DNA of 64,000 nucleotides, taken from the NCBI GenBank assembly GCA_013289695.1, contig JABCZK010000008.1, positions 62,001 to 126,000 on the forward strand, given 5' to 3'. The position numbers were made by a program, and so were the translations under genes. The DNA comes from Acidobacteriota bacterium. Lineage in GTDB: Bacteria; Acidobacteriota; Terriglobia; Acidiferrales; UBA7541. This document shows, piece after piece, positions 17,899 through 41,254 of the stretch. Position 1 is the stretch's first letter. Each line of letters starts with the position of its first letter. The notes under the pieces are model-generated. The model saw nothing but the letters and a program-made list of their open reading frames with translations. It was not told where the DNA came from and did not search any database.

Positions 17899-19344
17899 CT
17901 ATCCCAAGTTCAAGACGAGAATGCGCGGCTCGGTCATCTCCTCGATGGCGTAGCGCAAGCCTTCGCGGCCAATTCCGGAATCCTTCACGCCGCCGTAGGG
18001 CATGTGGTCAATCCGAAAAGCGGATATATCTCCCGCGATCACGCCTCCGACTTCCAGATTTTCAAACGCCGAAAACAGCAGCTTCGAATCGCGCGTAAAG
18101 ACTCCGGCCTGTAGTCCGAAGGGCGAATCGTTTACACGGCGGACGGCGTCGGCGAAATCGTCGTAGGGCTCAACAATCACTACCGGCGCAAAAACTTCCT
18201 GGCAGCTGACTTTCATGTCTGCGCGCACGTGCGTCAACACCGTGGGCTGCAATACCGCACCCTGGCGCGCGCCGCCCGCGTGCAGTTTCGCGCCTCCCGC
18301 AACAGCTTCATCAATCCAGGAAGCCGCGCGGCGTGCCGCGTCTTCGCTGATCATGGGCCCCACGTCGGTGGCTTCATCCAAGGGATCGCCCACGCGCAAT
18401 TTCTTGACGCCGGCGAGCAACCGCGCCAGGAATTGCTCCTGCACGCTGCGCTGCACGTAAATCCGCTGCACCGATATGCAGCTCTGCCCGGCATAGGAAA
18501 AACCGCCAACGACGCAACGATCCGCCGCGACGTCCACGTCCGCGTCGGCGTGGACGATCACTCCGGCATTGCCACCCAATTCCAGCGTCACTTTTTTCTT
18601 CCCGGACTTCCCTTTCAGCGCCCAACCTACCGGCACGCTTCCCGTAAAGGTGAGCATTTTCAGGCGGTCGTCGCCGACCAATTTCTCCGCTGCTTGATTT
18701 GCGAGCGGCAGCACGTTCAGAGCGCCGGCCGGCAGCCCGGCTTGCTCGACAACTTCGGCGAGCAGTAGCGACGTGAGCGGGGTTTGCGGCGCAGGTTTCA
18801 GCAAGGTGGTGCAACCGGCGGCAATTGCCGGGGCCACTTTGTGCACTACCAGATTCAGCGGAAAATTAAACGGCGTGATGGCCAGAATCGGGCCCAGTGC
18901 GAAACGGCGAACGATTCCGGCGCGACCTGCGGTGGAAGCCTGCCAATCCAGAGGCAGCCACTCGCCACCGATGCGCGTAGCCTCCTCGGCCGCGACTGCA
19001 AAAGTGAAGACCGCGCGGTCAACTTCGGCGCGCGCCGTGCGGATAGGTTTCCCTGCTTCGAGCGCGACGAGCAGCGCAAATTCTTCGCGCCGTTTGCTGA
19101 TTCCGCCGGAAATGGCACCGAGAATGGCTTGCCGCTCGTATCCTGCCATTTTGCGCGTGAGTTGAAATGCGCGTTGTGCGGCGCGCACGGCTTCTTCGGC
19201 ATGTGCGGCAGTGGCACGATACGATGCGCCGACTACGGCGCGGTCGTAAGGGGCTAAAACTTCAAAGCGCTCGCCTTCTCTGATCCATTTTCCGTCGAGA
19301 TAGAATCCCCAGGTCTTCGCTGGAGATTTTGTTGCGGTTCCCAT
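17899..19344 (-). CDS. NAD(P)-dependent aldehyde dehydrogenase (candidate succinate-semialdehyde dehydrogenase)
   Basis: This 481-residue aldehyde dehydrogenase has the cofactor motif FTGSVPVG (about 233-240), the general base Glu255 in TLELGGN and catalytic Cys289 in GQSCISVQR. It lacks a signal peptide. Sequence style (ITPFNFPLNLVVHKVAPA) places it with the succinate-semialdehyde/glyceraldehyde/lactaldehyde-type enzymes. It lies downstream of GABA aminotransferase on the same strand, though 330 bp away. The product of that enzyme is succinate semialdehyde, so oxidation to succinate is a sensible guess. An alternative is the oxidation of an aminoadipate semialdehyde from lysine. Family is certain, substrate is inferred. 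Confidence 0.9.
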   Translation of the reverse strand: MGTATKSPAKTWGFYLDGKWIREGERFEVLAPYDRAVVGASYRATAAHAEEAVRAAQRAFQLTRKMAGYERQAILGAISGGISKRREEFALLVALEAGKPIRTARAEVDRAVFTFAVAAEEATRIGGEWLPLDWQASTAGRAGIVRRFALGPILAITPFNFPLNLVVHKVAPAIAAGCTTLLKPAPQTPLTSLLLAEVVEQAGLPAGALNVLPLANQAAEKLVGDDRLKMLTFTGSVPVGWALKGKSGKKKVTLELGGNAGVIVHADADVDVAADRCVVGGFSYAGQSCISVQRIYVQRSVQEQFLARLLAGVKKLRVGDPLDEATDVGPMISEDAARRAASWIDEAVAGGAKLHAGGARQGAVLQPTVLTHVRADMKVSCQEVFAPVVIVEPYDDFADAVRRVNDSPFGLQAGVFTRDSKLLFSAFENLEVGGVIAGDISAFRIDHMPYGGVKDSGIGREGLRYAIEEMTEPRILVLNLG

Positions 19345-19674
19345 GGATGGTCCTCTGACTTTAGCTGCTGCGAACTGAGGAGTCGGTGTGACGACTGCAA
19401 AACACGTACTTCAGCGGCTAAGCAATTTGCAAAACAAAACGCGCGAGGCCTTTGCAGCGGCGGTCTTCAAACCGCCATCGTTGCTAGCCGCGCCACCGAT
19501 GGCGCACTGCAGTGTTCCGCGACCAGTGCCAAACCGATGCAACCGCAACGGAGGCCCGGTTCGATGAACCCGAACCGGCCGCTACAAATGCAACGGCACG
19601 GGCAGAGGCGCCCATCCCGCGTTTGCGCGATGGCCGCTACAAAGTCAAAACGTGAGCTCGCGCAAGCCGCGAAT
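19345..19674. repeat. Non-coding intergenic region with GC-rich palindromes and a 12-bp direct repeat
   Basis: No gene is visible in these 330 bases. The inverted repeat GGCGGT-cttcaa-ACCGCC lies at 19459-19476, and GGCCGCTACAAA is repeated at 19577-19588 and 19632-19643. The pattern resembles interspersed palindromic repeats at 26847-26920 and 54838-54866. This spacer may separate the last aldehyde dehydrogenase from the gabT transcription unit. Confidence 0.5.
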
Positions 19675-21039
19675 TTATGCGTGGCGCGGAGCGGTTTCCA
19701 CTTGCGTTTCGGCGACTATGGCCAGCGCGGATTCCAGAACGTTTAGGCCCTCGTCGAATTGCTCGGTGGTGACAACGAGCGGCACCAGAACGCGCAGCAC
19801 ATTGCCGTAACTTCCGGCGGAGAGCAGGATCAGGCCGCGTTCGCGGCAGTGGCGCAGCACCTGTTCGGTCTCTTCCTTCGCAGGCTCGCGCTGGTCCGCG
19901 GAGCGCACCAGTTCCAGTGCGCGCATAGCGCCCAGGCCGCGCACCTCGCCGATCAGCGGCCAGCGCTTCTGCCATTCCCTGGCACGCGATTCAAATCGAG
20001 CGCCGAGTTGTTCGGCACGAGCGGAAAGATTCTCGCGCTCCAGAGTTTCGATGGCAGCCAAAGCCGCAGCGCACGCCAGCGGATTGCCGCCGTATGTGCC
20101 GCCGAGGCCTCCTACTCCCGGAGCATCCATAATTTCCGCGCGACCGGTGACTGCTGCAAGCGGCATGCCCGCGGCAATGGATTTCGCGCTTACCAGAATA
20201 TCGGGAGTGATGCCGTAGCGTTCGGAGGCAAACATCGCGCCGGTGCGGCCAAATCCGGTTTGCACTTCGTCGGCGATGAAGAGAATTTCGTGGCGCTTGC
20301 AGATTTCCTGGAGCACGGTGAAGAATTCAGCGGGAGGCGCGACGAAGCCGCCCTCGCCGAGGACCGGCTCGACGACCACTGCCGCGACAGCTTCGGAGGC
20401 CACCATGCGTTTGAAAGTGTCTTCGAGATGGTGTGCGCAAAAAACATCGCAGCTCGGATATTTCAAGGAATACGAGCAGCGGTAGCAATAGGCGTAGGGA
20501 ATGCGGTAAATATCGGCGGCAAAAGGCTCAAAGCCCGCTTTATAGGGATGCGTCTTACTGGTGAGCGACATGGTCAGCATGGTGCGGCCGTGAAATGCGT
20601 CCTCGAAACAAATGATCGCCGGACGGTGCGTGTAAGCCCGCGCGATCTTGACCGCGTTTTCGATGGCCTCGGCGCCGCTATTCAGCAGAATTGTTTTCTT
20701 CGCGAAATTGCCGGGCACCAGCGAATTCAGCTTTTCCGCCAGCGCGATATATTTTTCGTACGGCGCGACGCTGAAACACGTGTGGATAAAAGCGTCGAGC
20801 TGCTCGCGAATCGCGGCAACGACACGCGGCGCGCGGTGGCCGGCATTCTGCACGCCGATGCCTCCGGCGAAATCGAGGAAACGATTGCCGTCCACGTCTT
20901 CCAGGATCGCGCCTTCGGCGCGCGCCGCAAAAATCGGCGTAGCGTGGCCGACGCCGCGCGGGACTGCAGCCTGACGGCGGCGCATCAGTTCTTGAGACCT
21001 GGGGCCCGGTATCGCAGTTCGCAGTTGGATCGTGGGCAT
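19675..21039 (-). CDS. gabT: 4-aminobutyrate (GABA) aminotransferase
   Basis: This 454-residue class III PLP aminotransferase closely follows GabT. It has GPRSQELMRRRQAAVPRG at the N-terminus, the LNSGAEAIENAVKIAR phosphate-binding region, ADEVQTGFGRTG and the PLP lysine Lys286 in SAKSIAAGMP. It transfers the amino group of GABA (or 5-aminovalerate) to 2-oxoglutarate, giving succinate semialdehyde. A cysteine cluster (185, 188, 197, 201; C-x2-C-x8-C-x3-C) lies in the middle and may bind metal. The gene begins one base after the stop of the preceding aldehyde dehydrogenase, so those two are coupled. This spacing links aminobutyraldehyde oxidation to GABA use. Confidence 0.92.
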   Translation of the reverse strand: MPTIQLRTAIPGPRSQELMRRRQAAVPRGVGHATPIFAARAEGAILEDVDGNRFLDFAGGIGVQNAGHRAPRVVAAIREQLDAFIHTCFSVAPYEKYIALAEKLNSLVPGNFAKKTILLNSGAEAIENAVKIARAYTHRPAIICFEDAFHGRTMLTMSLTSKTHPYKAGFEPFAADIYRIPYAYCYRCSYSLKYPSCDVFCAHHLEDTFKRMVASEAVAAVVVEPVLGEGGFVAPPAEFFTVLQEICKRHEILFIADEVQTGFGRTGAMFASERYGITPDILVSAKSIAAGMPLAAVTGRAEIMDAPGVGGLGGTYGGNPLACAAALAAIETLERENLSARAEQLGARFESRAREWQKRWPLIGEVRGLGAMRALELVRSADQREPAKEETEQVLRHCRERGLILLSAGSYGNVLRVLVPLVVTTEQFDEGLNVLESALAIVAETQVETAPRHA

Positions 21040-21040
21040 G

Positions 21041-22552
21041 TTAGTACCATCCGATGGGCTGTTCGTTCAAATTGATGTGCACTTGCTTGGTCTCGAGATA
21101 TTCTTCGATGCCCCAGGGTCCCAGCTCGCGACCGAAACCGGATTGCTTGTATCCCCCCCAGGGAGCTTCGACGTAGGTGGGTTGCATGTGATTCACCCAC
21201 ACAATCCCGGCGCGCAAAGCTTTCACCACGCGAAACGCCTTGAAGATATCGCGCGACCACACGGCGGCAGCCAGGCCGTACGGCGTATCGTTCGCAATCT
21301 TGATGGCGTCGGCTTCGTTCGTGAACGGAATCACCGTTGCCACCGGGCCGAAGATTTCCTCGCGCGCGATGCGTGCGGAATTATCCACGTCGTAGAAAAT
21401 CGTCGGCTCCACGTAGTAGCCGTGCTTCATGGATGACGGGCGCCCGCCTCCGGCTGCGAGCTTCGCTTCCTTCTTGCCGATTTCCTGGTAGGCGCTGACG
21501 CGATCGAATTGTTCCTTGCTGACCAGCGGTCCCATCTTTGTTTCGCGCTCGAGCGGCGGGCCCAGGCGAATCTTTTTGGCCTTGGCGCTCATCGCATCCA
21601 CGAATTTAGAATAGATGGGCTTTTCCACCAGGATGCGGCTTCCCGCCGAGCACACTTCGCCCTGATTGATAAAGACGCCGAACAGCGCGCCGTCAATCGC
21701 GGCCTCGAAATCGGCGTCTGCGAAAAATATGTTCGGCGATTTTCCGCCGAGTTCAAGTGTCACGCGCTTCAGGGTGTCTGCCGCCATTTTCACGATCGCT
21801 TTGCCGACCGCGCCGCTGCCCGTGAAGGCAACTTTGTTGACGTCCGGATGTTTGACCAGCGGCGCGCCTGCGCCTTCGCCGAAGCCAGTAATGATGTTCG
21901 CGACTCCTGGCGGCAAACCCGCCTCGGTGAGATACCCTGCGAATTCGAGCGCCGTGAGCGGAGTTTGTTCGGCAGGTTTCAAAATGCAGGTGCAACCTGC
22001 GGCGATCGCTGGAGCCAGTTTCCACGCTGCCATCAGCAGAGGATAATTCCAGGGAATGATTTGCGCGGCGATGCCAATCGGTTCGCGCAAGGAAAGGCTC
22101 AGCGCGTTGTCCGGCACGGGATTTACGTGGCCCAAAACTTTGGTGGCCATGCCGCCGTAATATTCAAAACAGGTGGCGGCGTCGGCGATGTCATACTCGG
22201 CTTCCACGATCGGCTTGCCGGAGTTGCGGCACTCGAGATCGGCCAGGTGCGCGGCTTCCTTGCGGATCCGCTCGGCCAGGCGAAACAGAATGCGCCCGCG
22301 GTCCTGCGCCGTGGTTTGGGGCCAAGCGCCGGAATTAAACGCCGCCTTCGCGGCAGCCACGGCGCGGTTCACATCGTTTTCATCCGCTTCGGGAACTTCC
22401 GCGATAACCTCTTCGGTGGATGGATTGATCACCGGGAAGACTTTGCCGCTTCGCGCTTCGACGAATTCACCATTGATGTACATCTTGTACTTGCGCGCGG
22501 CCGCTTTTGATTTCGCGCTCTTCGCTGCGATCGCCTTCGCCTTGCTTGCCAC
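21041..22552 (-). CDS. Aldehyde dehydrogenase (candidate 4-aminobutyraldehyde dehydrogenase)
   Basis: This 503-residue enzyme belongs to the betaine-aldehyde/aminobutyraldehyde/indoleacetaldehyde-type dehydrogenases. It has IIPWNYPLLMAAWKLAPA, FTGSGAVG, Glu267 in LELGGKSPNIFF, catalytic Cys301 in NQGEVCSAGSR, and the C-terminal PWGGYKQSGFGRELG motif typical of that clade. The GTG start at 22552 is preceded by AGGGAGG; an upstream in-frame region overlaps the permease gene and is non-protein-like. About 20 Lys/Ala-rich residues precede the conserved fold. With gabT one base downstream, oxidation of 4-aminobutyraldehyde to GABA is the best guess. Confidence 0.9.
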   Translation of the reverse strand: MASKAKAIAAKSAKSKAAARKYKMYINGEFVEARSGKVFPVINPSTEEVIAEVPEADENDVNRAVAAAKAAFNSGAWPQTTAQDRGRILFRLAERIRKEAAHLADLECRNSGKPIVEAEYDIADAATCFEYYGGMATKVLGHVNPVPDNALSLSLREPIGIAAQIIPWNYPLLMAAWKLAPAIAAGCTCILKPAEQTPLTALEFAGYLTEAGLPPGVANIITGFGEGAGAPLVKHPDVNKVAFTGSGAVGKAIVKMAADTLKRVTLELGGKSPNIFFADADFEAAIDGALFGVFINQGEVCSAGSRILVEKPIYSKFVDAMSAKAKKIRLGPPLERETKMGPLVSKEQFDRVSAYQEIGKKEAKLAAGGGRPSSMKHGYYVEPTIFYDVDNSARIAREEIFGPVATVIPFTNEADAIKIANDTPYGLAAAVWSRDIFKAFRVVKALRAGIVWVNHMQPTYVEAPWGGYKQSGFGRELGPWGIEEYLETKQVHINLNEQPIGWY

Positions 22553-22580
22553 GGAGCCTCCCTGCTGATAGCCGTTTAAA

Positions 22581-24011
22581 TTAGATGCTGGACGCCGCCG
22601 CTTGCGCCAGTTTGCGGCGGCCGTACACGTAAAAGAAAAATACGGCGAGGCCAATGAAGAACGCCGTGCCGCCGAACATCCACGTCTCATACGACAGCAG
22701 CGAGCGAATCTGCTGCGCCGGAAAAAACGCCAGCACGATGCCGAGCGTGGTCGTTACGAGGCCGCTGCCACCGGCCAGGAACAGCGTCGTCCTGCTATAC
22801 AGGCCCTTCCCCGAATCCGGATTCGCGGCAATTTTCAGCAACGCCCCGAACATATAAAGGAACGGGATAAGCTGCAACACCACCGCCAGCGACAACAATC
22901 GCTGAAAAGTTTCCTGCACGCCCGAACCGAACGAATTCACCAGCACCAGAATACTCGAGACGATACCTTGCACGATCAGCGCCGCATACGGTGTGGCAAA
23001 ACGCGGGTGCGTCTTTCCCAGCCAGCTGGGCATGTAAGAATCCAGGCCCGCGACAAACGGAATGCGTGCCGAACCCGCCAGCCACGCGGAGCCGATCCCT
23101 GCGATCGAAATGCTCAGCATCAGCGCGAATGGGGCGACGATCCAATCGGCGCCGACGCGGCTGGCCATGTGACTGACGGCCTGCACGATTCCCTGCAGCA
23201 CGTTGATGTCGCTTTTGCTGACGGCGATCAGCAATGTCAGCGTCGTCGCGATGTACATCACGCCAGAAAGTATTCCGCCCAACGCCACCGCGCCGGGCAA
23301 AGTTTTCCGCGGGTCTTTGATTTCGTCGCCCATCACCGACGCGAGTTCCAGTCCCACGAGCCCAAAACAAATCACGCCAAAAGAATTCAGCACAAATCGC
23401 GGATTCGCCGGAATCCGAAAATCCGCGGCCGTCACCGTTGTCCCAAAACGCGAAAACATGATCAACCCCAGCCCAATCAGCACTGCAGCCGCCACTCCCG
23501 TTCCGATTCCGCCTAGATTGTTGATCCATTTTCCGACGCCGAGTCCCACGATGTTCAGAATCACCAGCAGCGCCATGAGCAGCAGCGACGCGACCACCGT
23601 GAAAGCTCGATTATCCGCCAGCCCCTGATGACCGGGCCCCAGCACAAACACCGAGACGCCCACGAAATAAAGCATCACCGTCGGCACGTACATCATGTTG
23701 TTGGTCCAGTAGCACCAGCCGGAGAGGAAACCGTGGAAGTCGCCGAAAACTTCCTTGGCCCACAAATAAACGCCACCCTCGCCGGGATAACGATGCGCCA
23801 GCTCGATCACAGCAATTCCCTGCGGCCAGAAAAACAGCACCAGCGAAACCAGCCAGAGCCAGACTGTGATCCCGCCATTGGCGGCGATGCTCGGCACCAC
23901 GTTCAGGTTGAATACCGCTACGACGAACAGCGCGACGAGGTCCCAACGGCCGAGCGAACGCTTCAGATGGACCGTTTCAGTGGTCGCAGCAACCGGAACT
24001 GGGTCGGGCAA
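22581..24011 (-). CDS. APC-superfamily amino acid/amine permease
   Basis: This protein of about 476 residues has 12 predicted transmembrane helices and the APC pattern: LGRWDLVALFVVAVFNLNV, the first-helix segment, then RYPGEGGVYLWAKEVFGDFHGFLSGWCYW and ELASVMGDEIKDPRKTLPGAV. It imports or exchanges amino acids or amines across the inner membrane. A TTG start at 24011 is favoured because AAGGAG precedes it; the in-frame leader upstream reads unlike protein. It lies between a class III aminotransferase and the aldehyde dehydrogenase, so the substrate is likely GABA, a polyamine or lysine. The C-terminus is basic (YGRRKLAQ). Confidence 0.88.
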   Translation of the reverse strand: MPDPVPVAATTETVHLKRSLGRWDLVALFVVAVFNLNVVPSIAANGGITVWLWLVSLVLFFWPQGIAVIELAHRYPGEGGVYLWAKEVFGDFHGFLSGWCYWTNNMMYVPTVMLYFVGVSVFVLGPGHQGLADNRAFTVVASLLLMALLVILNIVGLGVGKWINNLGGIGTGVAAAVLIGLGLIMFSRFGTTVTAADFRIPANPRFVLNSFGVICFGLVGLELASVMGDEIKDPRKTLPGAVALGGILSGVMYIATTLTLLIAVSKSDINVLQGIVQAVSHMASRVGADWIVAPFALMLSISIAGIGSAWLAGSARIPFVAGLDSYMPSWLGKTHPRFATPYAALIVQGIVSSILVLVNSFGSGVQETFQRLLSLAVVLQLIPFLYMFGALLKIAANPDSGKGLYSRTTLFLAGGSGLVTTTLGIVLAFFPAQQIRSLLSYETWMFGGTAFFIGLAVFFFYVYGRRKLAQAAASSI

Positions 24012-24101
24012 AGGACTCCTTGTCAAATGGGCACACCGCACGGAAAGCTCGTGGGTCCCTCGCGAGCAAGCGAGAAACCCGCAAGCCGCCGGCGGCAAAA
24101 C

Positions 24102-25478
24102 TCAGTGGCCGGCGGTGGCCGCGACGTGCGGCTCTTTTTGCGCCTTCGCCAGTGCGGGCGCAATTTCCGCGAACGTCGCGATGTGGCGGTCAATGTCCGC
24201 TTCGGTGTGCGCCACGGAAACGGTCCATTGCTCGTCCCACCAATAAGGCTGGGCCATCACGCCGCGATTGACCATAGCGAACCAGTAGTGCCGCCACAAT
24301 TCGCTGTCGGCATCGAGCCAGTCGCGATAGTTGCGGATGGGCTTATCGAAGAACATCAGCGCGCCGTTCGATCCCGCACCGATGACGTAAGCGTTCAGGC
24401 CGGTCTTGCTGATTTGCTTGTTGTAGCCATCGAGCAATTTTTTGTTGAGCTTGGTCACGTGGGTGTAGGCGTCCTTGGTCAACACTTCGCGGAACGTGGC
24501 AAGCCCGGCCGCCATCGCGACCGGATTGGTGTTGTACGTGCCGCCGTGAAAAACCTTGTGATCGGAGATCTGTCCCATCACCTGGCGCGTGGAAGCAAAT
24601 GCCGCGAGCGAAAAGCCGCCGCCGATGGATTTCGCCAGGCAGACGATGTCCGGCTTGACGCCGAAATATTCGCACGCACCGCCATATGCGAGCTTCGCGC
24701 CGGTTTTCACTTCGTCGAAAATCAGCAGCGCGCCGTTTTTCCTGGTGATTTCACGCAGCGCCTGGTGATAGCCCTCTTGCGGCATCAGGATGCCCACGTT
24801 CATCATGATCGGCTCGACGATCACTGCCGCGATTTCGCCGGGATACTTGGCGAAGAGGCGCTCGACGCCGGAAATGTCATTGAACTGCGCGATCAGCGTG
24901 TTCTGCACCGTCGCTTTCGGAATGCCGGAGCCGCCCGGAACGGCAGTGGGAAAATTCGGATCGCCGATTTCGCTGGCCTTGGGCTTCAGCGAGACAAGCA
25001 CGGAATCATGCAGGCCGTGATAGCCGCCTTCCATTTTAATGATGCGGTCGCGCCCCGTGGCAGCGCGCGCGAGGCGCACCGCGTGCATGGTGCATTCGGT
25101 GCCGCTATTGCTGAAGCGCACCATCTCCACAGGAAAGCGCTGGCAGATTTCCTCCGCCAGCTCCCATTCCAGATCGTGCGGCATACCGAACATGGTGCCG
25201 GTGCCGAGCTTCGCTTGCACGGCCTTCATCACCGCGGGATGGCAATGCCCCGCCATCAGCGCTCCGAAGCAAAGATTGAAATCCAGATATTCGTTGCCAT
25301 CGATGTCGCGAATGTGTCCGCCTTTTCCATCGCGAACAAAAATCGGATAGGGATCGTAGGCGCGATAATTGCTCGCAACGCCCAGCGGCAAGCGGCCTTC
25401 CGCTCTGGTGTGCGCCGCTTTCGAACGCGGCGTGCGCTTTTCGTAAGTGTTTATTTCCTGCTGCAGCCCTTCGTGCAT
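24102..25478 (-). CDS. Class III aminotransferase, glutamate-1-semialdehyde-aminomutase-like
   Basis: This 458-residue PLP enzyme has FSNSGTECTMHAVRLARA, GGYHGLHD, IFDEVKTGAKLAYGGACEYFG and the PLP lysine Lys283 in LAKSIGGGFSLAAF. Overall it resembles HemL, but a true hemL is present at 39875-41221, and the active-site segments differ (DEVKTGAKLA against DEVITGFRMA). It is thus a paralogue with another job, probably an amine or amino acid transaminase in the amine island. The ATG at 25478 follows TTGGAGGC. It lies between a lysine-6-dehydrogenase-like gene (61 bp upstream) and the permease. Confidence 0.87.
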   Translation of the reverse strand: MHEGLQQEINTYEKRTPRSKAAHTRAEGRLPLGVASNYRAYDPYPIFVRDGKGGHIRDIDGNEYLDFNLCFGALMAGHCHPAVMKAVQAKLGTGTMFGMPHDLEWELAEEICQRFPVEMVRFSNSGTECTMHAVRLARAATGRDRIIKMEGGYHGLHDSVLVSLKPKASEIGDPNFPTAVPGGSGIPKATVQNTLIAQFNDISGVERLFAKYPGEIAAVIVEPIMMNVGILMPQEGYHQALREITRKNGALLIFDEVKTGAKLAYGGACEYFGVKPDIVCLAKSIGGGFSLAAFASTRQVMGQISDHKVFHGGTYNTNPVAMAAGLATFREVLTKDAYTHVTKLNKKLLDGYNKQISKTGLNAYVIGAGSNGALMFFDKPIRNYRDWLDADSELWRHYWFAMVNRGVMAQPYWWDEQWTVSVAHTEADIDRHIATFAEIAPALAKAQKEPHVAATAGH

Positions 25479-25539
25479 AACTGCCTCCAAATGCTGGTAC
25501 TGTGGCCGACGCACGGCCCTGAGATTTGCCACTACTGAG

Positions 25540-26697
25540 CTAAGATTTTACGTTCCATCGGCGGAATGTGAATCCGCGCTTCTTTAGTTCGCCGAAAAAT
25601 GAATGGGGCGGCACTACATTTTCGGGCGCCTGCACGCCAATGCCGGGAATTTCGCCGCGCCCTTGCATCACCGCGGCGATCGCGGCGGGAAAACCGGTGT
25701 CGCGCGCCACGGCTGAAAATTGCGGCCGCGCAGTGTGGTCCGCAAACATTTCCATGGCCGCGCCCACGCGATGCTTGTCAGCTCGGCCGGTAACGACTAC
25801 GCGCAGTGCTTCGACGTCAAGCGGCGTCTGCGCCGGCGTTTTTTTCTGCAGCAGCGCGAGCAGCACAGCGCGCGGCGCAACCTGCGTGCCATTCACGGCG
25901 AGCGGTTCGCGCTCGGTGAATCCCACGTCCACCAGGCTACGCACCAGGCCCACCAGCTTCGGGTCGTAATTGATCTTAAAGAATACCTCGCGCACGCCTT
26001 TCTTGCGAAAGCTCTCAGCGAGCGTGCCCAGCTCGGAGTGGATGGAATGCCGCAGCACGATTTTGCCGATGGGCGCGGGAAAGGTTTCCGTTTCCGGCTC
26101 GGAGAGCATTTCTTTTTCGACGTAGCGCCCGCCCACGAAATGGATCGGCGGCATGGTCAGCTCGTCCAGGATCGTCGCGATCGAAAACGAGTAGGCGACC
26201 GGGCTGTCGTAGCGCTGCTCGTCCGCGCCCGCGTTGTACACTTTGATTGCGTCCACGCGATCCAGCGGGTCGGCCAGCGCGCGCGCCATCACATTCGTAA
26301 TGCCAGGAGCGCCGCCCATGCCGGGAATGGCCAGCTTGCCGATGCGGCGAAAATCGCGGCCCAGGGCGAATTGCTTGCGCGTCATGTGGTACAGGCCGCC
26401 CAGGTCCATGTAATTCACACGAGCCGCGAGCGCCGCGCGCATCACGTCCAGATTCCAATTGTATTGCGTGCAATTCACCACCACGTCGCAACCGTGCAGC
26501 AGCTTCGCCAGCTGCGGCGTGGCGCGCACGTCCGCGAACGCGGCGCGAGTGACTCCTCGTCCAAATTTCCGCGCGACTTCCTGCGCCCGCGCGCGATCGA
26601 AGTCGGCAACGACGATGCTCTTCACCTCGCGTGCGCCGCTCAGGTCGTAAACCACCGCGCGACCCATCAATCCCGCGCCTAGGACGACAATCTTCAT
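25540..26697 (-). CDS. Saccharopine-dehydrogenase-family protein resembling L-lysine 6-dehydrogenase
   Basis: At 385 residues the protein matches L-lysine 6-dehydrogenase of Geobacillus in length and layout as I remember it. The N-terminal Rossmann motif is VVLGAGLMGRAVVYDL, then GCDVVVNCTQYNWNLDVMRAAL, DLGG, and APGITNVMARAL. The C-terminal run ends GRGEIPG...PENVVPPHSFFGELKKRGF, close to that enzyme's end. The reaction is NAD-dependent oxidative deamination of lysine to an aminoadipate semialdehyde/piperideine. Carboxynorspermidine synthases and other saccharopine dehydrogenase relatives are alternatives. It heads the catabolic arm; the start is supported mainly by fit to the Rossmann fold. 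Confidence 0.8.
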   Translation of the reverse strand: MKIVVLGAGLMGRAVVYDLSGAREVKSIVVADFDRARAQEVARKFGRGVTRAAFADVRATPQLAKLLHGCDVVVNCTQYNWNLDVMRAALAARVNYMDLGGLYHMTRKQFALGRDFRRIGKLAIPGMGGAPGITNVMARALADPLDRVDAIKVYNAGADEQRYDSPVAYSFSIATILDELTMPPIHFVGGRYVEKEMLSEPETETFPAPIGKIVLRHSIHSELGTLAESFRKKGVREVFFKINYDPKLVGLVRSLVDVGFTEREPLAVNGTQVAPRAVLLALLQKKTPAQTPLDVEALRVVVTGRADKHRVGAAMEMFADHTARPQFSAVARDTGFPAAIAAVMQGRGEIPGIGVQAPENVVPPHSFFGELKKRGFTFRRWNVKS

Positions 26698-30000: not shown

Positions 30001-30927
30001 GCCTTGTGTTAGCCGATTGCCCTCGTAAGAGCCAAATATGAATGTCTTGTCCTTCTTGATCGGACCGCCGAGTGTGGCGCCAAACTGATTTTGTTTGTAG
30101 GGAGCGATCGAACTGTCGAAATAGCCGCGGGTGTTCAACGCATCGTTGCGCAGGAAGTCATAAAAGTCGCCGTGAACGCTATTCGTTCCAGACTTGGTGA
30201 CGACGTTCACTACGGAACCAGAGTTACGGCCATACTCGGCGTCAAAAGTATTCGTGAGCACGCGAAACTCTTCGATGGCGTCCGGAGAAGGCTGAATCGC
30301 CGGCGCGTTGACGAAAATGTCGTTGCCGTCTCCCCCGTTGACCATGTAGTTGTTCGCGCGACCGCGACCGCCGTTCACCGACACGGCTCCGACGTTGTCG
30401 CTGCCCGCGAAGAGGTCCGCGCCGAGCTGCGATTGCACGCCGGGCTGGAGTTGCAGCAGCGCGTAGGCGCTTCTGGAGTTCAGGGGAAGTTCACGAATGG
30501 ATTGATCGGTCATCACCGCGCCTAGCTGTGTGCTGGTGGTCTCCACCTGCGTGGCGTTAGCCTCTACGGTGACGGTGTCGTTCGCTCTGCCGATCTGCAG
30601 GGTGACGGTGACGAAGTTGACGTGGCCGATGGATACCACAACACCCTTGACGATGAACTTCTTGAATCCCTGAGCATCCGCGCTCAGGTCATAGTTTCCG
30701 ACGGACAATTCGGGAATATCGAACGCGCCGTCCTTGTCGGAGGTGACCGACCGCTGCGAATCCGTGCCGGTGAGCGTTGCGGTGATCGTCGCTCCGGGTA
30801 CCACGGCGCCTGATGGATCGTTCACGATTCCGCGAATCGAGCCGTTAGTTTGCCCCCAGGCCGCGCCGCAACCGAACAGCCCAGCCAATGCCAATAGATA
30901 CACCCCCAACCGGCCTGTCGCTTTCAT
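27046..30927 (-). CDS. TonB-dependent outer membrane receptor, Oar-like, with carboxypeptidase-regulatory domain
   Basis: This 1293-residue protein has a signal peptide (MKATGRLGVYLLALAGLFGCGAAWGQ). An N-terminal CarboxypepD_reg beta-sandwich follows (GSIRGIVNDPSGAVVPGATI..., about 28-110), then a plug region (VNGGRGRANNYMVNGGDGNDIF and the YGRNSGSVVNVVTKSGTN strand). A very long beta-barrel ends in an aromatic residue (QFGLKFLF). Such Oar-type proteins are expanded in Acidobacteriota and take up large substrates with TonB energy. It lies in the amine island, opposite the MerR-XRE-cupin regulator. The ATG at 30927 follows GGAGCGGCG. The ligand cannot be read; peptides or glycans are as likely as amines. 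Confidence 0.92.
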   Translation of the reverse strand: MKATGRLGVYLLALAGLFGCGAAWGQTNGSIRGIVNDPSGAVVPGATITATLTGTDSQRSVTSDKDGAFDIPELSVGNYDLSADAQGFKKFIVKGVVVSIGHVNFVTVTLQIGRANDTVTVEANATQVETTSTQLGAVMTDQSIRELPLNSRSAYALLQLQPGVQSQLGADLFAGSDNVGAVSVNGGRGRANNYMVNGGDGNDIFVNAPAIQPSPDAIEEFRVLTNTFDAEYGRNSGSVVNVVTKSGTNSVHGDFYDFLRNDALNTRGYFDSSIAPYKQNQFGATLGGPIKKDKTFIFGSYEGNRLTQGISTGTVLLPTTAEAGGDFSEVTALNGPAATFQGAVNDQAFADLLNSRPGCSAAVGGPIAVGAQYASLFPNNHIPTQCFDPTALALYNNNIAPLGTGSFSAVPASTADNNQFTVRFDHKITGNQQFSAYYYFENDANAQPISSFQGAGGNIPGFGALFGTRVQQWNLSHTWTLSSTAVNEFRFNYFREGQQTNNHPVHTLASVQDSCGAAVAPANCFSDPANVSAGITTDLPGRVGVPYVNVSGGFALGNNFEGELPQTGNTFQWTDNYTKIFGKHTTKFGVDVRRQRFDQFLYFDVSGEYTITSQATADEIQSDPGFPSYPNYFLGAPTSYTQGAAQREDLRNTALYLFAQDSYKLKSNLTLNYGLRWELNTPYYDTGNRLQTFRPGQATTQYPCVLSAANAAALGLTPGDCGQNTTNGNNAVFPLGLVFPGDKGVPRGLTSTYYKGFAPRIGLAWSPDATDGWLAKLTGGPGKTSVRAGFGLFYNPIEQLVLEQFSAEPPFGGSSFVSDPQFNLPYLTQAGVPVPNPFGGVINQTPQTPCAVEPGGPPGCVDWSNFRSSIYFGEFQPNLKSQYAEQYNLTIERQLTKDMLLRVSYVGTQAHHLLASYDLNFGHAETCLGLNNLPAGSVLSFPGGPPPQAGTPPCGPFGSDSEYFIQPGTVIPQYTAAPGTPPTTCSGLTLPYNAAPGGSTCIPAGTTIGPNGVTLDGLRKYSSPNCQPLSGSLFTGCPSDGVAVFSNIFAEDTIANSNYNGLQISVEKNYSHGLLFQASYTFSKAIDQGASFENELNPLNFNATRGLSLLDAKNRFVFSPVWDLPIPKYEGVKGKVANGWGASAIITYQSGFPIRVQDQNDSELESSLFFEGANTPQVTGPITFMSPKNGPSNNNPSHQYVVGNFSDSNPGTFGNVPHALCCGAPINNTDLVISKKTPINERWNTEFRAEFYNAWNHTQFNNPDGNFTDSTFGQVLKVRESPRVMQFGLKFLF

Positions 30928-31070
30928 CGCCGCTCCTTTGAAAAAAGCTGGCGCCACCCCCACCCCCCAGGCGCCTAACTTTGAGTTTTTCGGTTGCAGC
31001 TTGCGAAACAACCTTACTATAATTCGGGAACGTTAGAAGAAGGTCGGCGGGTTGTCAAGGGGAAACTGTT
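30928..31070. promoter_or_regulatory. Divergent promoter region between the TonB receptor and the MerR-XRE-cupin regulator
   Basis: The 143-bp spacer serves two genes reading apart. On the plus strand a candidate promoter is TTGCAG (30994-30999), 18 bases, TATAAT (31018-31023). On the minus strand a candidate is TTGACA (31058-31053), 17 bases, TAACGT (31035-31030). The two overlap, so a bound regulator could control both. The regulator is expected to bind here, but no convincing operator palindrome was found. Confidence 0.4.
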
Positions 31071-31907
31071 TTGGCGAGCTCTCAGACTCGGACGCGCCCG
31101 GCGAAGACTGTGCGCGCCCAGGAATTCTTGCGCATCAGCGATGTGGCGCGCGCCGTCGGCGTGTCGCCGTCCATTTTGCGGACGTGGGAAAACCTCGGAC
31201 TGGTCACACCGCAGCGCACTCACAGCCATTATCGTCTCTATACGCAGGCGGACGTGCGCATTCTGAAACGAGCGCAATATCTGCGCCGCGTGCGCGGGCT
31301 GAACGCTCCAGCCATCGTGCATCTGCTGAAGCGCGAGGGCGTGCTGCCTCCCGCGGGTGTGCGGCTCAAGGCCGATCCGATCGGGCCACGCCTGCGGCGC
31401 ATGCGTCTGCGCAACGGGTATTCGCTTTCCAAAGTGGCGCGCGCCGCGGGTGTGTCGGTGGGATTCCTCAGCGCCTTGGAACGCGCGCAGATGACGGCTT
31501 CGGTGGCAACATTGCGACGCATTGCGCGTTTTTATCGCATGAATATTCTCGCGCTGTTTGATCCGTCCAACTCTAATCCCGGCCGCGTGCGGCCTGCGGA
31601 TCGTAAGGTGCTCGATGCCGGTCCCGGCGTACGCATGGAATTGCTCGCATGGGGCAATACGCTGATGGAGCCGCATCTGTTCCGCATCGCGCCGTCGTCC
31701 GGCAGCGGCGAATCATACGCACACGACGGCGAGGAATTTTTGTACATTCTGAAAGGCAGGCTGGAAATTTCCCTGGCGGATGGCGCGCGGCAACTGCTGC
31801 AGGAAGGCGATAGCTTTTATTTTGAAAGCAACAATGCGCATGGCTGGAAGAATCCCGGGAAAAAGGAAACGCTGGTTCTGTGGATTAATACGCCCCCTAC
31901 GTTTTGA
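31071..31907 (+). CDS. Three-domain transcriptional regulator: MerR HTH + XRE HTH + cupin
   Basis: This 278-residue protein contains two DNA-binding modules and a sensor. A MerR-type winged helix covers about 19-88 (FLRISDVARAVGVSPSILRTWENLGLVTPQR). An XRE/HTH_3 helix-turn-helix covers about 105-164 (GYSLSKVARAAGVSVGFLSALER). A C-terminal cupin covers about 200-275 (HDGEEFLYILKGRLEISLADG). The last two together equal the HTH-cupin layout of PuuR, the putrescine-operon repressor, so the ligand here may be an amine. It uses a TTG start after AAGGGGA. It stands just before potDABC and opposite the TonB receptor gene. The additional MerR domain is uncommon. Confidence 0.85.
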   Translation: MASSQTRTRPAKTVRAQEFLRISDVARAVGVSPSILRTWENLGLVTPQRTHSHYRLYTQADVRILKRAQYLRRVRGLNAPAIVHLLKREGVLPPAGVRLKADPIGPRLRRMRLRNGYSLSKVARAAGVSVGFLSALERAQMTASVATLRRIARFYRMNILALFDPSNSNPGRVRPADRKVLDAGPGVRMELLAWGNTLMEPHLFRIAPSSGSGESYAHDGEEFLYILKGRLEISLADGARQLLQEGDSFYFESNNAHGWKNPGKKETLVLWINTPPTF

Positions 31908-32016
31908 TCTGCGTTCGCGGCGATGGATGCAATAAACGGTGGCAACTCATTTGAACGTTGAATCTTCACGGCGTCGCAGTTCCCTGCAATTCGAGCGCGC
32001 CAGCGGGAGCAGACCA

Positions 32017-33095
32017 GTGAGCGACAGAAAACGCACACCCGGAATTGTTTGGCTCGGCGTGCTTGCGGCGATTGTTGTTCTGACGGCTGGCGGTTGCGCG
32101 AAGAAGACGCCTGCGCTGAGCCTGCTCGTCTGGGAGGGTTACGCCGATCCCTCCTACGTGCGCGCGTTTGAAGAATCGCATCACTGCAAGATCAGCGCTT
32201 CGTATATGGGCTCGAGCGACGAGCTCGTCGCCAAACTGCGCGGTGGCAGCGCCAGCAATTACGACGTGATATCGCCTTCGAGCGACGTCGCGACGATGAT
32301 TGCTGCCGCAGGACTGGCCGCTCCGCTCGATCTTTCGAAGTTGCCAGCCTACCCGCGGCTATCGGAACGCCTTCGCACCATGCCGCTCGTCCGCGTGAAT
32401 GGCAACGTGTACGGCGTGCCGTTCACGTGGGGGCCGAATCCCCTGCTCTACGACACCACTTATTTCGCGAAGCCGCCCGACAGCTGGGCCGTGCTGTGGG
32501 ACCCGAAGCTCAAAGGGAAAATCTCCGCGTGGGACGAGCTTTCGACGATGTACATGGCCGCGCAGGTGCTCGGATATGACAAGCCGGACCCCAACCACAT
32601 CTACAATCTGAGCGACGGCGAACTGGACAACGTGCGCAAGAAGTTGATCGAGCTGAAACCGAACATCCGCAAGTTCTGGTCCACGGGCGGCGAGCTGACG
32701 AATCTATTTGAAAATCACGAAATCGTGGCGGCCATGGGCTGGCCGCTCACCACCAACCAGCTGCGCGCGGCCGGCTTTCCGATTGGCGAGACCATCCCGA
32801 AGGAAAACACTACCGGATGGATCGACCATCTGATGATCACCACCGCGAGCGAGCACAAAGACCTCGCCACAGAATTTCTGGAATACATGATCGAAGCGAA
32901 GACACAAAAAATGGTGACCGACGTTACCGGATACGATCCCGCCAATTCGCACGCGGCGGAGTTCATGACCGACGAGCAGAGAAAAACGCTGCATCTGGAC
33001 AACGTGGACGAATATATGACACGCATTTATTTCTGGCAGAACGTTCCGCGCCGCGACAAGTACAACGAAATCTGGAACGAAATAAAGGCGGCGCA

Positions 33096-33099
<4 letters not shown>
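32017..33099 (+). CDS. potD: Spermidine/putrescine ABC transporter substrate-binding lipoprotein
   Basis: This protein of about 360 residues begins at a GTG after GGGAG and has a lipoprotein signal ending VVLTAGGC (Cys27). It then shows the PotD/PotF fold: LLVWEGYADPSYVRAFEESHHCKI, VISPSSDVATMIAAAGLAAPLDLSKLP and YGVPFTWGPNPLLYDT, a polyamine-binding segment. Its partners follow immediately. It delivers spermidine or putrescine to PotB/PotC. An upstream GTG at 31939 would give 26 more residues and spoil the compact signal peptide. The stop overlaps the potA start. Exact polyamine preference is not predictable. Confidence 0.92.
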
Positions 33100-34211
<1,112 letters not shown>

Positions 34212-34213
34212 CC

Positions 34214-35062
34214 ATGTACTCGCGCGCGTACAAAGCCGGCGTGACGATTCCTCCACTCCTGTGGGTCTCAGTGTTTCTCCTGGTGCCCTACGCGATTCTG
34301 TTTTGCTATAGCTTCTGGTCCGTCTCTCCCGCGCAAGTGATCGTGCACAATTGGAATTTGCAGAATTATCTTCAGCTCGCGCGCAATCCGATTTATCTGC
34401 AAGTTCTCTTTCGCTCGATGCGCATCGCGGCTTCCGTCACCGTCTTCGCGTTGCTGCTCGGCTATCCGCTGGCGTACTACCTGTCGTTCCACGCGGCCAA
34501 GCGCAAGGATCTGCTCTACCAGCTTGTGATCATCCCGCTGTGGGCGAGCTACCTGGTTCGCGGGTACGCCTGGAAGACGATCCTGGGCAGCGATGGCGTC
34601 CTGAACGGATTCCTGCAATATCTGCACATCACGCATAAACCGGTGGAGTTTTTTCTGTACAGCCCCTTCGCGGTGATCATTACTCTGACGCACATCTACA
34701 CGCCGTTCACGCTGCTGCCGATCTACGCCTCGCTCGAACATATTCCGCGCAATCTCGTAGAGGCTTCGCACGATTTGGGATCTTCGCCCTGGTCCACGTT
34801 TCGCCGCGTGATTCTGCCGCTCTCGCTTCCGGGGGCTCTGGCCGGCGCCACGTTCGCTTTCGTGCTGACGCTGGGAGATTTCCTGGCGCCGTTGCTGGTC
34901 GGCGGTCCTAGCGGGGTCATGATTTCGAATGTGGTGGTAAGCTTGTTCGGCGCGGCTTACAACTGGCCGCTGGGCGCCGCGATTTCGTTCTGCATGATGC
35001 TGCTCGTTGTGACGCTGCTGTTCGTCACGGAGCGCCTGGAAAAAAGGCTGGCGGTTTCGTGA
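34214..35062 (+). CDS. potB: Spermidine/putrescine ABC transporter permease, subunit 1
   Basis: This 282-residue protein has six transmembrane helices and the cytoplasmic EAA loop EASHDLGSSPWSTFRRVILPLSLPG that docks to the ATPase. Its start lies two bases after the potA stop, and its stop overlaps the GTG of the next permease. With potC it forms the translocation channel. Size and order match PotB of E. coli. Confidence 0.93.
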   Translation: MYSRAYKAGVTIPPLLWVSVFLLVPYAILFCYSFWSVSPAQVIVHNWNLQNYLQLARNPIYLQVLFRSMRIAASVTVFALLLGYPLAYYLSFHAAKRKDLLYQLVIIPLWASYLVRGYAWKTILGSDGVLNGFLQYLHITHKPVEFFLYSPFAVIITLTHIYTPFTLLPIYASLEHIPRNLVEASHDLGSSPWSTFRRVILPLSLPGALAGATFAFVLTLGDFLAPLLVGGPSGVMISNVVVSLFGAAYNWPLGAAISFCMMLLVVTLLFVTERLEKRLAVS

Positions 35063-35904
35063 AGGGCGGATTCCAGTCCCGGCGCGCGCCTTTGCTCGGC
35101 GCCTATGCGTTTCTCGTGTATGCGTTCCTTTATTTTCCCATTATCGTTCTCGTGGTGTATTCGTTCAACGGCTTCGGAGTGGGCGGATTCCCTCCCGCGA
35201 ATTGGACTTTGGACTGGTATCGCCAGTTGTTTACGGACGGCGCGCTGTGGGATGCGGTACTGAACAGCGTGATCGTCGCCGCGGTGGCTGTCGCAATTGC
35301 GCTCGGCCTGGGTTTGCCGGCCGCGCTCGCGCTGGACCGCACGGATTTTCCCGGCAAGGCGCTCTTCCGCCGATTGGTGCTGCTCCCGCTGATTCTGCCA
35401 GGCATCATTACCGGACTTTCCTTGTTGATGTTGTTCGTCGCTGTCGGCATGAAACTCAGCCTGGTAACGATCACGCTGGGCCACGGCACCGCGTTGATTT
35501 CGGTAGCTACCACGGAAATCTTTGCGGGACTGCAGAAGCTCGAGCGCGCGCAGGAAGAAGCTTCGCTCGATCTGGGCGCGAATCACTGGAAGACGTTTTG
35601 GCGCGTCACCCTGCCCAACCTGCGCGTTTCGCTGATTGCCGCGGGCCTGTTGATTTTCACGCTCTCGCTCGATGAAATCGCCGTCAGTTTTTTCCTAATT
35701 GGCCGCGACAATACGCTGCCGCTGGAAATCTGGTCGCGCCTGCGCCGCGGCATCACTCCGGAAATCAACGCCATTTCCACGCTGATTTTGTTCTTTTCCA
35801 TTGGAATGATTTTGCTCTGGTACCGCCTGAGAACTCGTTTGCAGGGCGCTAAGGAATCCGCCGCGCCACTGGTTCCCGCCTCGATTGAAGGAGAAACCGC
35901 GTGA
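35059..35904 (+). CDS. potC: Spermidine/putrescine ABC transporter permease, subunit 2
   Basis: This 281-residue protein has six transmembrane helices and the EAA loop EEASLDLGANHWKTFWRVTLPNLR. The segment FNGFGVGGFPPANWTLDWYRQLF is typical of PotC-type subunits. A GTG start overlaps the potB stop (GTGA). Its own stop overlaps the next gene's GTG, an amine oxidase, which ties transport to oxidation in one transcript. Confidence 0.93.
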   Translation: MKGGFQSRRAPLLGAYAFLVYAFLYFPIIVLVVYSFNGFGVGGFPPANWTLDWYRQLFTDGALWDAVLNSVIVAAVAVAIALGLGLPAALALDRTDFPGKALFRRLVLLPLILPGIITGLSLLMLFVAVGMKLSLVTITLGHGTALISVATTEIFAGLQKLERAQEEASLDLGANHWKTFWRVTLPNLRVSLIAAGLLIFTLSLDEIAVSFFLIGRDNTLPLEIWSRLRRGITPEINAISTLILFFSIGMILLWYRLRTRLQGAKESAAPLVPASIEGETA

Positions 35905-37430
35905 CCGAAACGCGCAGGGATTTTTTGAAATTTGTCGTGGCCGGCTCGGTCGCCGCGGGATGTCCCGTAAATCTTTCGCTGCTCAATGTGGAAACCGGCC
36001 CGACGCCGCAACTCGACGGCGATCATTTTGCAATCTGCCATGAAGTGCGCGACGGCCAACCGTTCGATAAGCCGGCGGTATCCAGCCGGCACGATGTGGT
36101 GATCGTCGGCGGCGGCGTCAGCGGCCTGAGCGCCGCCTATTTTCTGCGCGGCCGCGATTTTTTGCTGCTCGAAAAAGAAACGCACTGGGGCGGGAACGCG
36201 TACCTGCAGGAATATCAAGGCCAAGCCTACGCCACCGGCTCCGCGTTTGATGAAAAGGACACGGCCAGCGAGCAACTCGCCCGCGAAATCGGCCTGGTCG
36301 AGTTGCCAATTAATTTTCCGGATCCCACCATCGTCGCAGGAAAATGGGTACCGGACACATGGCGCGGCGGATTGGATCAACTCCCCTACTCGGACTCCGT
36401 GCGCGAAAGCTTCAAGAAATTCCGCACGGAGTTTAAGGCGCTCGATCCCGATAAAAACGCGCAACAACTCGACAGCCTGCCGCTCTCGAACTATCTCAAG
36501 GGCTATGCACCCGAACTCAAGAAATGGTGGGACGCCTACGGCCTATCCAATTGGGGCGCGAATTCCGCTGACGCCTCCGCGCTCGTCGCCGTTGAAGATC
36601 TGCAATACATGTCCGCCGACGAGGACGTTCGCAGAACCTTGCCGGGCGGAAACGGCGCGCTCTCGCGCCAGCTGGCGACTACGCTAGAACCAAAATACGG
36701 CCAACAGATGATCGGCGACGCGACGATTGTTTCCCTGGACCCGCAAAAGGCCGAGGTGCACATCACCTACGTCCAAGCAGGCCAGCTGCGCACGGTCGCC
36801 GCGAAATACGTGATCATGGCCACGCCGAAATTCATCACCGCGCGCCTGATTTCAGGGCTTCCCGACGCGCAGCACGAAGCCATGATGTCGTTCCGTTACT
36901 GCCCCTATCCGGTGATCAACATGATTTTCGATAAGCCCATCTACAATCGCGCCTACGACACCTGGTGCCCCGGCAACTCCTTCACCGATTTTATCGTCGC
37001 GGATTGGGTGCTGCAGAAACAGCCGGGCTACGCGCAGAAAAATAATATTCTCACTTTCTACACGCCGATTTCGGAATTGCATCGCGACCGGCTGCTCACC
37101 GTGGATGGCTGCCAGAGAATCGCGGAAAAAGTACTCCAGGATTTTCAGAACCTCGCGCCCGAATTCAGCGCCGCCGAACCGATCGAGGTGCACATGTACC
37201 GCCGCGGGCATCCTATGTTTTTGCCCACGCCGGGGCTATTCACGAAAGTGATCCCCGTGGCGAACCAGCCATTTGGTCGGGTCGCTTTCGCCAATACCGA
37301 TTCGGTGGGGCCTGTTTCTGAAATTGGCGGAGCGGTGGAAGCGGCGCGTCACGCGGTAGAGTGGACGGAAAAGCAAATGGCTGCGCCGGCGCGTTCAACT
37401 GGAAAAGCCGCCGCAGGCGCACGAAAATAA
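35901..37430 (+). CDS. Tat-signal FAD-dependent amine oxidase, spermidine-dehydrogenase-like
   Basis: This 509-residue flavoprotein starts with a twin-arginine signal (TRRDFLKFVVAGSVAAG, Arg5-Arg6), so it is probably exported folded with FAD. A typical dinucleotide motif follows (VVIVGGGVSGLSAAYF, 66-81), then the FAD-covering stretch LLLEKETHWGGNAY and a C-terminal FAD segment (GRVAFANTDSVGPVSEIGGAVEAARHAV). The N-terminal layout (signal, short link with CHEVRDG, then the Rossmann motif) recalls spermidine dehydrogenase. Its GTG start overlaps potC, with GAAGGAG before it. A role in cleaving a polyamine is inferred from the operon; other amines are possible. Confidence 0.83.
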   Translation: MTETRRDFLKFVVAGSVAAGCPVNLSLLNVETGPTPQLDGDHFAICHEVRDGQPFDKPAVSSRHDVVIVGGGVSGLSAAYFLRGRDFLLLEKETHWGGNAYLQEYQGQAYATGSAFDEKDTASEQLAREIGLVELPINFPDPTIVAGKWVPDTWRGGLDQLPYSDSVRESFKKFRTEFKALDPDKNAQQLDSLPLSNYLKGYAPELKKWWDAYGLSNWGANSADASALVAVEDLQYMSADEDVRRTLPGGNGALSRQLATTLEPKYGQQMIGDATIVSLDPQKAEVHITYVQAGQLRTVAAKYVIMATPKFITARLISGLPDAQHEAMMSFRYCPYPVINMIFDKPIYNRAYDTWCPGNSFTDFIVADWVLQKQPGYAQKNNILTFYTPISELHRDRLLTVDGCQRIAEKVLQDFQNLAPEFSAAEPIEVHMYRRGHPMFLPTPGLFTKVIPVANQPFGRVAFANTDSVGPVSEIGGAVEAARHAVEWTEKQMAAPARSTGKAAAGARK

Positions 37431-41221: not shown

Positions 41222-41254
41222 GTTTCCCCGTGGCACTCTTAACGTACGTTCAAC

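Follow-up and report, generated by a model that had tools for sequence, protein, structure and literature searches.

The window analysed here is a stretch of 64,000 nucleotides from an Acidobacteriota bacterium (GenBank assembly GCA_013289695.1, contig JABCZK010000008.1). Its positions 17899–37430 hold two divergent arms of genes that, on balance, we take to be a regulated module of Acidobacteriota for the uptake and catabolism of diamines and polyamines, proceeding by a direct route that avoids γ-glutamyl intermediates. Gene content, conservation, family assignments and an operator motif could be read from the sequences, and it is from these that each substrate, and the direction of regulation, is predicted below. 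Every gene that a first-pass annotation had named in this interval was found there (potDABC, an APC permease, an outer membrane receptor, a flavin amine oxidase, aldehyde dehydrogenases and gabT), and two were added that it had missed, namely the aminotransferase AT3b and the oxidoreductase SDH-like. The features of the locus are:

17899–19344, minus strand: SSADH2, aldehyde dehydrogenase, proposed oxidiser of the semialdehyde made by GabT (Aldedh, 491 bits)
19675–21039, minus strand: GabT, γ-aminobutyrate (GABA) transaminase (TIGR00700, 577.7 bits)
21041–22552, minus strand: ABALDH, putative ω-aminoaldehyde dehydrogenase (no profile reaches its cut-off; the best include those for BADH and aminobutyraldehyde dehydrogenase)
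22581–24098, minus strand: APC-family permease, start codon uncertain (AA_permease_2, 180 bits)
24102–25532, minus strand: AT3b, HemL-like class III aminotransferase (Aminotran_3, 235 bits)
25540–26733, minus strand: SDH-like, saccharopine/carboxyspermidine-dehydrogenase-like oxidoreductase (Sacchrp_dh_C, 79 bits)
27046–31011, minus strand: Oar-type outer-membrane β-barrel receptor, longest open reading frame (ORF) (OMP_b-brl_4, 611 bits; CarboxypepD_reg, 66.9 bits)
31010–31036, no strand assigned: operator, an imperfect palindrome with a motif conserved in REG–Oar intergenic sequences
31071–31907, plus strand: REG, MerR-XRE-cupin regulator (MerR_1, 65.6 bits; HTH_3, 48.9 bits; Cupin_2, 64.2 bits)
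31939–33099, plus strand: potD-like solute-binding lipoprotein (SBP_bac_8, 121 bits)
33096–34211, plus strand: potA-like ABC ATPase (PotA profiles, 384 and 344 bits)
34214–35062, plus strand: potB-like permease (PotB, 202 bits, top of the list, below the cut-off of 348)
35059–35904, plus strand: potC-like permease (PotC, 179 bits, top of the list, below the cut-off of 326)
35901–37430, plus strand: FAO, flavin amine oxidase family protein with a Tat-type leader, SpdH-like (Amino_oxidase, 44.8 bits, above the cut-off of 19.8)

The plus arm reads REG, potD, potA, potB, potC, FAO, and adjacent genes share 4 bases at potD/potA, potB/potC and potC/FAO. The minus arm reads, in the order of transcription, receptor, SDH-like, AT3b, APC permease, ABALDH, gabT, SSADH2, and a single base (21040) separates ABALDH from gabT, just as the first pass had it. 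The GTG start of ABALDH at 22552 and the start of potA were read off the sequence; the analyses were run with an ABALDH end at 22555 or 22690 and with a longer potA ORF from 32817. AT3b probably begins with the ATG at 25478, the position where its orthologues begin, and for the receptor an ATG at 30927 is more likely than the start of the longest ORF.

In the scheme that we propose, the amine would enter through the Pot-type ABC importer and through the permease of the APC family, and AT3b would transaminate a primary amine of the diamine to give an ω-aminoaldehyde, which is the role of PatA/SpuC. ABALDH would oxidise this aldehyde to GABA or β-alanine, as its family and its residue 441 suggest, and GabT would turn the product into a semialdehyde. 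The route would end with the aldehyde dehydrogenase encoded in the slot after gabT, this being SSADH2 in the window, with succinate as its product, GabD in some relatives and a CoA-acylating MMSDH in many. FAO, where present, would split spermidine, so that the C4 and C3 pieces could feed the same enzymes. REG most likely governs both arms from a single operator, as PuuR does for puu.

The grouping of these genes was assessed across other genomes. When named genomes were scanned with four aligned AT3b proteins, 146 relatives emerged; the analysis retained the best 80, and all 80 loci (numbered with the prefix L) were annotated by similarity to the window proteins, with matches counted at an identity of at least 45% and partner counts restricted to loci with enough flank. 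Loci picked by AT3b similarity are not a random sample, and AT3b, having served as the query, is bound to be constant; ABALDH and GabT are under no such constraint, yet they are nearly constant. The APC permease accompanies AT3b in 70 of 71 loci, ABALDH in 64 of 65 and GabT in 56 of 56, with the Oar-type receptor in 59 of 62, REG in 53 of 59 and potD in 40 of the 49 loci having at least 9 kb upstream. The conserved block AT3b–APC–ABALDH–GabT, divergent from REG–Pot, is thus repeated in 80 loci of other genomes, so the grouping is not due to chance, and the neighbourhood comparison in Acidobacteriota that had been suggested at first pass bears out the arrangement. Record titles are acidobacterial for 79 of the 80; the remaining locus, L132, is titled Betaproteobacteria, carries an acidobacterial-type locus and perhaps comes from a mislabelled metagenome bin.

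Among 396 genomes drawn evenly from the phylum, that of the window included, AT3b at E≤1e-130 is present in 15, REG at 1e-30 in 15, FAO at 1e-30 in six and SDH-like at 1e-40 in 35. The module is therefore recurrent in Acidobacteriota, and not universal. In other acidobacterial families, ABALDH (65–72%) shares a stretch with AT3b (47–55%) in four of eight fetched stretches, adjoining it through the APC gene in L185 and lying 3.7–6 kb away in L188, L190 and L191; it was not found in the fetched stretches L186, L187, L189 and L192.

REG combines an XRE helix-turn-helix and a cupin domain, as PuuR does, with an extra MerR domain. The first-pass annotation was right that the locus has its own regulator, which is this plus-strand gene; the minus-strand ORF at 31017–31676 was rejected as a regulator, as it matches no family and is a shadow of REG. 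Between the arms lies an operator of the form AACCTT-ACTATAATTCGGG-AACGTTAG, the right half of which is degenerate in the window. The motif AACCTTgCTATAATCccGcAAggTTAGAG is present in 50 of 55 REG–Oar intergenic sequences, including that of the window, and the exact dyad ACCTTG-N11-CAAGGT in 26 of the 55. In 100 mononucleotide shuffles no dyad arose in more than one sequence, a contrast that is overstated because the intergenic sequences are related by descent. With up to two mismatches, the operator motif occurs once in the window's genome, at 31010–31036, and the control gave no occurrence. The operator overlaps a TATAAT box, which makes repression from a shared site likely. REG homologues (45–49%) in other families adjoin SSF or APC transporters (L059, L060, L061), with gabT-like genes nearby in L059 and L061 and a carbon–nitrogen hydrolase in L061; judging from these neighbours, regulators of the REG family may control more than one kind of amine or amino acid locus.

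On the minus arm, GabT passes the GABA-transaminase equivalog, scoring well over its cut-off of 506.65. The best NCBIfam profile for ABALDH is BADH (569 bits, cut-off 669), the aminobutyraldehyde dehydrogenase profiles NF010000 and TIGR03374 score 509.8 (cut-off 615) and 385.6 (cut-off 909.3), and the nearest relatives are plant betaine-aldehyde/aminoaldehyde dehydrogenases. Across 65 ABALDH orthologues the residues matching spinach Y160, W167 and W456 are invariant, as is the catalytic cysteine (C291), the W285 equivalent is Ile in 63 and Val in two, and position 441, located in the alignment by its distance from W456, is Ile in 60, the window among them, and Val in five. Plant enzymes with Ile at position 441 are described as unable to oxidise betaine aldehyde in the abstract of PMC4046141, which does not cover Val.

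For SSADH2 the nearest solved relatives are 5jry and the ALDH21 structure 5mz5, ALDH21 being, we presume, a succinic semialdehyde dehydrogenase. The protein attains the cut-off of none of the 25 NCBIfam families listed for it (SSADH, 352 against 646) and occupies the same slot in L076 and L108. A gap of 330 bp (19345–19674) separates it from gabT, against 60 bp in L076, a near relative that continues with TerC and kinase-TPR neighbours as the window does. A census of this slot covered 64 loci with gabT, 10 of them too short and 54 assessable, and gave MMSDH in 30, GabD in seven, an ω-transaminase alone in two and SSADH2 in two. NCBIfam profiles confirmed MMSDH twice (567.6 and 564.1, cut-off 448.5) and GabD once, in L083 (869.8, cut-off 828), and the other calls, among them the six further GabD loci, were made at a similarity of 45% or more to the confirmed examples. 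Succinate, the end product named at first pass, is kept as the proposal for the window and is too narrow as the only end, given the MMSDH in more than half of the assessable relatives. In the window's own genome MMSDH sits apart from the locus, and the 20 kb read around it held no linked AT62-type gene.

Turning to transport, the binding protein has YdcS as its best NCBIfam match (142 bits) and also matches PotD (89 bits), both below cut-off, and the two PotA profiles matched by the ATPase have cut-offs of 482 (for the score of 384) and 355.6 (for that of 344). Among what we take to be the ligand-pocket residues of PotD, the equivalents of W34, Y37, S83, W229, W255, D257 and Y293 are invariant in 47 sequences, that of D168 is Asp in 42 and Glu in five, including the window, and that of Q327 is Gln in 43. 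The best NCBIfam profiles for the APC permease are GadC-type GABA antiporters, far below cut-off.

FAO belongs to the FAD amine oxidase family and begins with a Tat-type leader (RRDFLKF). Its profile matches include MAO B (4.7e-23) and SpdH (2.8e-19), and phmmer aligns it with SpdH at 1.6e-8, starting from residue 1 in both proteins. The fold is MAO-type, and since MAO, putrescine oxidase, phytoene desaturase and protoporphyrinogen oxidase all stand at similar Z, the fold comparison does not choose a substrate; SpdH is not among the 50 matches listed for that comparison, which excludes nothing. Exactly two histidines, H47 and H437, are invariant across 15 FAO sequences, and the heme ligands of SpdH are given as His54 and His562 in PMC12564564. 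FAO is predicted to be an SpdH-like FAD enzyme, perhaps heme-bearing, with H47 and H437 as candidate ligands.

FAO is present in 17 of the 80 loci and adjoins potC in 14 of these; an unmatched ORF intervenes in L090 and L128, and in L112, where the pot genes are absent, FAO lies beside an amidohydrolase. A search of 30 whole genomes at 1e-30, two of them positive controls, found FAO in eight of 28 locus-bearing genomes and not in the other 20, and all 10 of its matches adjoin potC and share sequence with a named locus. Six loci (L082, L083, L110, L117, L136 and L142) have another ORF past potC and no FAO match genome-wide. As many of the genomes are drafts, little weight attaches to any one absence. 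FAO is optional in the locus, and the first-pass view of a flavin oxidase as the obligatory first step was not supported: 20 searched genomes gave no match, and it is AT3b that has constant partners. A search of plasmids with FAO returned weak matches only.

In many relatives, and not in the window, an Amidohydro_3 gene follows REG, ahead of potD where that is present. The family match was checked in the first two of these examples, and the others were called by similarity:

L054, 11219–12952: Amidohydro_3 gene
L056, 8463–10223: Amidohydro_3 gene
L087, 3394–5148: Amidohydro_3 gene

In L069 this gene also adjoins a distant FAO. Mutual exclusion of FAO and an extra amidohydrolase was apparent in 10-kb flanks and was discarded when a wider search found both together, side by side in L112.

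AT3b passes the NCBIfam GSA-aminomutase subfamily model NF000818 (422.7, cut-off 398) and could be misnamed; it does not pass the hemL equivalog (398.2, cut-off 527.3). That equivalog is passed at 606 by hemL proper, found on the minus strand at 39875–41236, 2.4 kb past the locus, so the window encodes two HemL-like aminotransferases. In a tree of 29 sequences, HemL, together with two alphaproteobacterial proteins, is split from the AT3b lineage with support of 100/100; L070 in this tree is a distant paralogue on a very long branch. A diamine role for AT3b is suggested by the sharing of a stretch with ABALDH in other families, described above, and by haloarchaeal neighbours. Seven annotated haloarchaeal AT3b regions, on plasmids (L162–L165 and L196–L198; an eighth region is unannotated), carry a glutamine synthetase (GS) family gene in five cases, a type 1 glutamine amidotransferase in three, ABC genes named PotD/PotF or spermidine/putrescine in three, an agmatinase family gene in two and MMSDH in one. 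It is possible that these are uncharacterised archaeal polyamine loci. Class II histone-deacetylase-like genes lie near the AT3b homologues in three of the seven. Two alphaproteobacterial regions, from a different branch, showed no polyamine-type neighbour link.

Three genomes (those of L083, L101 and L107) have AT3b, ABALDH, GabT and GabD with no FAO match, and would hold the full PatA–PatD–GabT–GabD set if AT3b performs step one. The remaining four GabD loci comprise L090 and L132, which have FAO, and L102 and L151, whose genomes lay outside the FAO search. A wider proposal, which we regard as possible rather than probable, is that Acidobacteriota and haloarchaea share a family of diamine transaminases, descended from HemL and founded by AT3b, whose members are liable to be named as GSA-aminomutases. 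In Acidobacteriota AT3b would open a complete polyamine pathway, to which some loci would add a spermidine dehydrogenase of FAD-heme type, exported through the Tat system and oxidising polyamines beyond the cytoplasm.

Several observations weigh against a polyamine module. No Pot gene scores above an equivalog cut-off, nor does ABALDH or SSADH2; the PotD pocket residues E36, Y85 and E171 are replaced; L-amino-acid oxidases stand at similar Z to FAO in the fold comparison; 13 of the 54 assessable loci have no terminal gene of the sought types after gabT; and the SDH-like gene is without a place in the proposed scheme. AT3b itself falls outside the PatA subfamily (145 bits, cut-off 612), and what counts most against its being a simple diamine transaminase is the retention of HemL residues. 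The equivalent of HemL Arg32 is retained in 17 of 18 acidobacterial rows (not in L070) and in all seven haloarchaeal rows, and that of Glu406 is retained in 16 of the 18 (Asp in L192, absent from L070) and is Gln in all seven. If the two residues act as they do in HemL, where Arg32 probably binds a carboxylate, their retention suggests a carboxylate-bearing substrate. This would suit a module for ω-amino acids, in which β-alanine and GABA, or their amide precursors, were the main substrates, AT3b acted as a β-alanine-type transaminase after ABALDH, and the Pot and APC proteins imported amino acids. The CoA-acylating MMSDH found after gabT in so many relatives fits malonate semialdehyde and would equally suit a β-alanine pathway free of putrescine, and MMSDH near a haloarchaeal AT3b and the GadC-type profiles of the permease point the same way. 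However, ABALDH would have no job if amino acids started the pathway, the pocket of the binding protein is partly of polyamine type, and AT3b is kept where GabD replaces MMSDH, so we consider this explanation rather unlikely. A γ-glutamyl pathway of puu type, its ligase encoded elsewhere and AT3b acting on carboxylate-bearing γ-glutamyl-amines, would also account for the retained arginine, and could be read into the haloarchaeal GS and amidotransferase genes and, in L186, a GS-like ORF (27%) in the neighbourhood of AT3b and pot genes. It is nevertheless improbable: haloarchaeal GS-family and amidotransferase queries, one of each, found nothing at 1e-6 in the window or the 80 loci (other ligase types lay outside this search), the window's genome (assembly 87% complete) has one GS match, 26–27% identical, and no PuuA-like γ-glutamylputrescine synthetase was found among the locus genes. 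The first-pass order of an aminobutyraldehyde-type dehydrogenase and a GABA transaminase with no γ-glutamyl step gains support from the GS query, the Ile of ABALDH and the GabD after gabT in seven relatives.

The saccharopine dehydrogenase domains of the SDH-like protein raise the question of lysine catabolism, with this enzyme and an aldehyde dehydrogenase acting as in the saccharopine route, and L057, L067 and L068 do have similar genes close to gabT-like ones. But the gene, flanked by those for the receptor and AT3b in the window and in L074, L076 and L077, occurs in just these three of the 80 loci, and its solved relatives (4ina, 1.1e-20) include a carboxyspermidine dehydrogenase (8deb, 1.2e-15), so that its label is provisional. 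With no saccharopine-forming partner found among the locus genes, and with GabT passing as a GABA transaminase, we think a lysine route very improbable. Metabolism of betaine, choline or carnitine is just as hard to credit: BADH is the best profile for ABALDH, but all 65 orthologues have Ile or Val both at position 441 and at the W285 equivalent, gabT and AT3b are conserved, and no choline dehydrogenase was found among the locus genes.

If the locus is the polyamine module that we favour, its interest lies partly in its hosts. Acidobacteriota are abundant in soil and few have been cultured, so a recurrent amine module under one operator would be useful as a testable prediction of their diet, with carbon and nitrogen drawn from polyamines, and as a hint for growing them. 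The automatic name HemL would probably hide the role of the AT3b family, and the position following gabT is filled by one or another of three aldehyde dehydrogenase families. Searches of open-licence literature found no paper on such a locus in Acidobacteriota among the titles listed.

Each part of the locus can be set beside a known system. The E. coli cluster ydcSTUV–ydcW (patD) links ABC genes with an aminobutyraldehyde dehydrogenase, and its YdcS is the best match of the binding protein; it reportedly lacks transaminases, a receptor and a flavin enzyme. Pseudomonas bauABCD pairs an ω-transaminase with an MMSDH-type enzyme, as many relatives do, but the relatives merge this pair with the diamine steps, and it is absent from the window's own locus. 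The PatA/SpuC–PatD/PauC–GabT–GabD pathway of E. coli and Pseudomonas has the same order of chemistry, from transaminase through aminoaldehyde dehydrogenase and GABA transaminase to semialdehyde dehydrogenase, according to a review (PMC9397018). The locus differs in drawing its transaminase from a HemL-like branch, in joining these steps divergently with Pot, APC, an Oar receptor and a regulator, and in a terminal aldehyde dehydrogenase of three families, that of the window not scoring as GabD type. P. aeruginosa SpdH is, like FAO, of the FAD amine oxidase family, but the similarity is low, FAO is optional and its gene closes a pot operon, and both its heme and the equivalence of the histidines are putative. 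E. coli puu has in PuuR a local regulator between divergent units, as REG is here (PMC9397018), whereas γ-glutamylation is not seen in the locus and REG has its additional domain. The first-pass contrast with puu was sound, but direct aminotransferase and spermidine-dehydrogenase routes were already known in E. coli and Pseudomonas, and the review covers both. The chemistry is familiar, and what is new is the locus, its HemL-like transaminase and its regulator.

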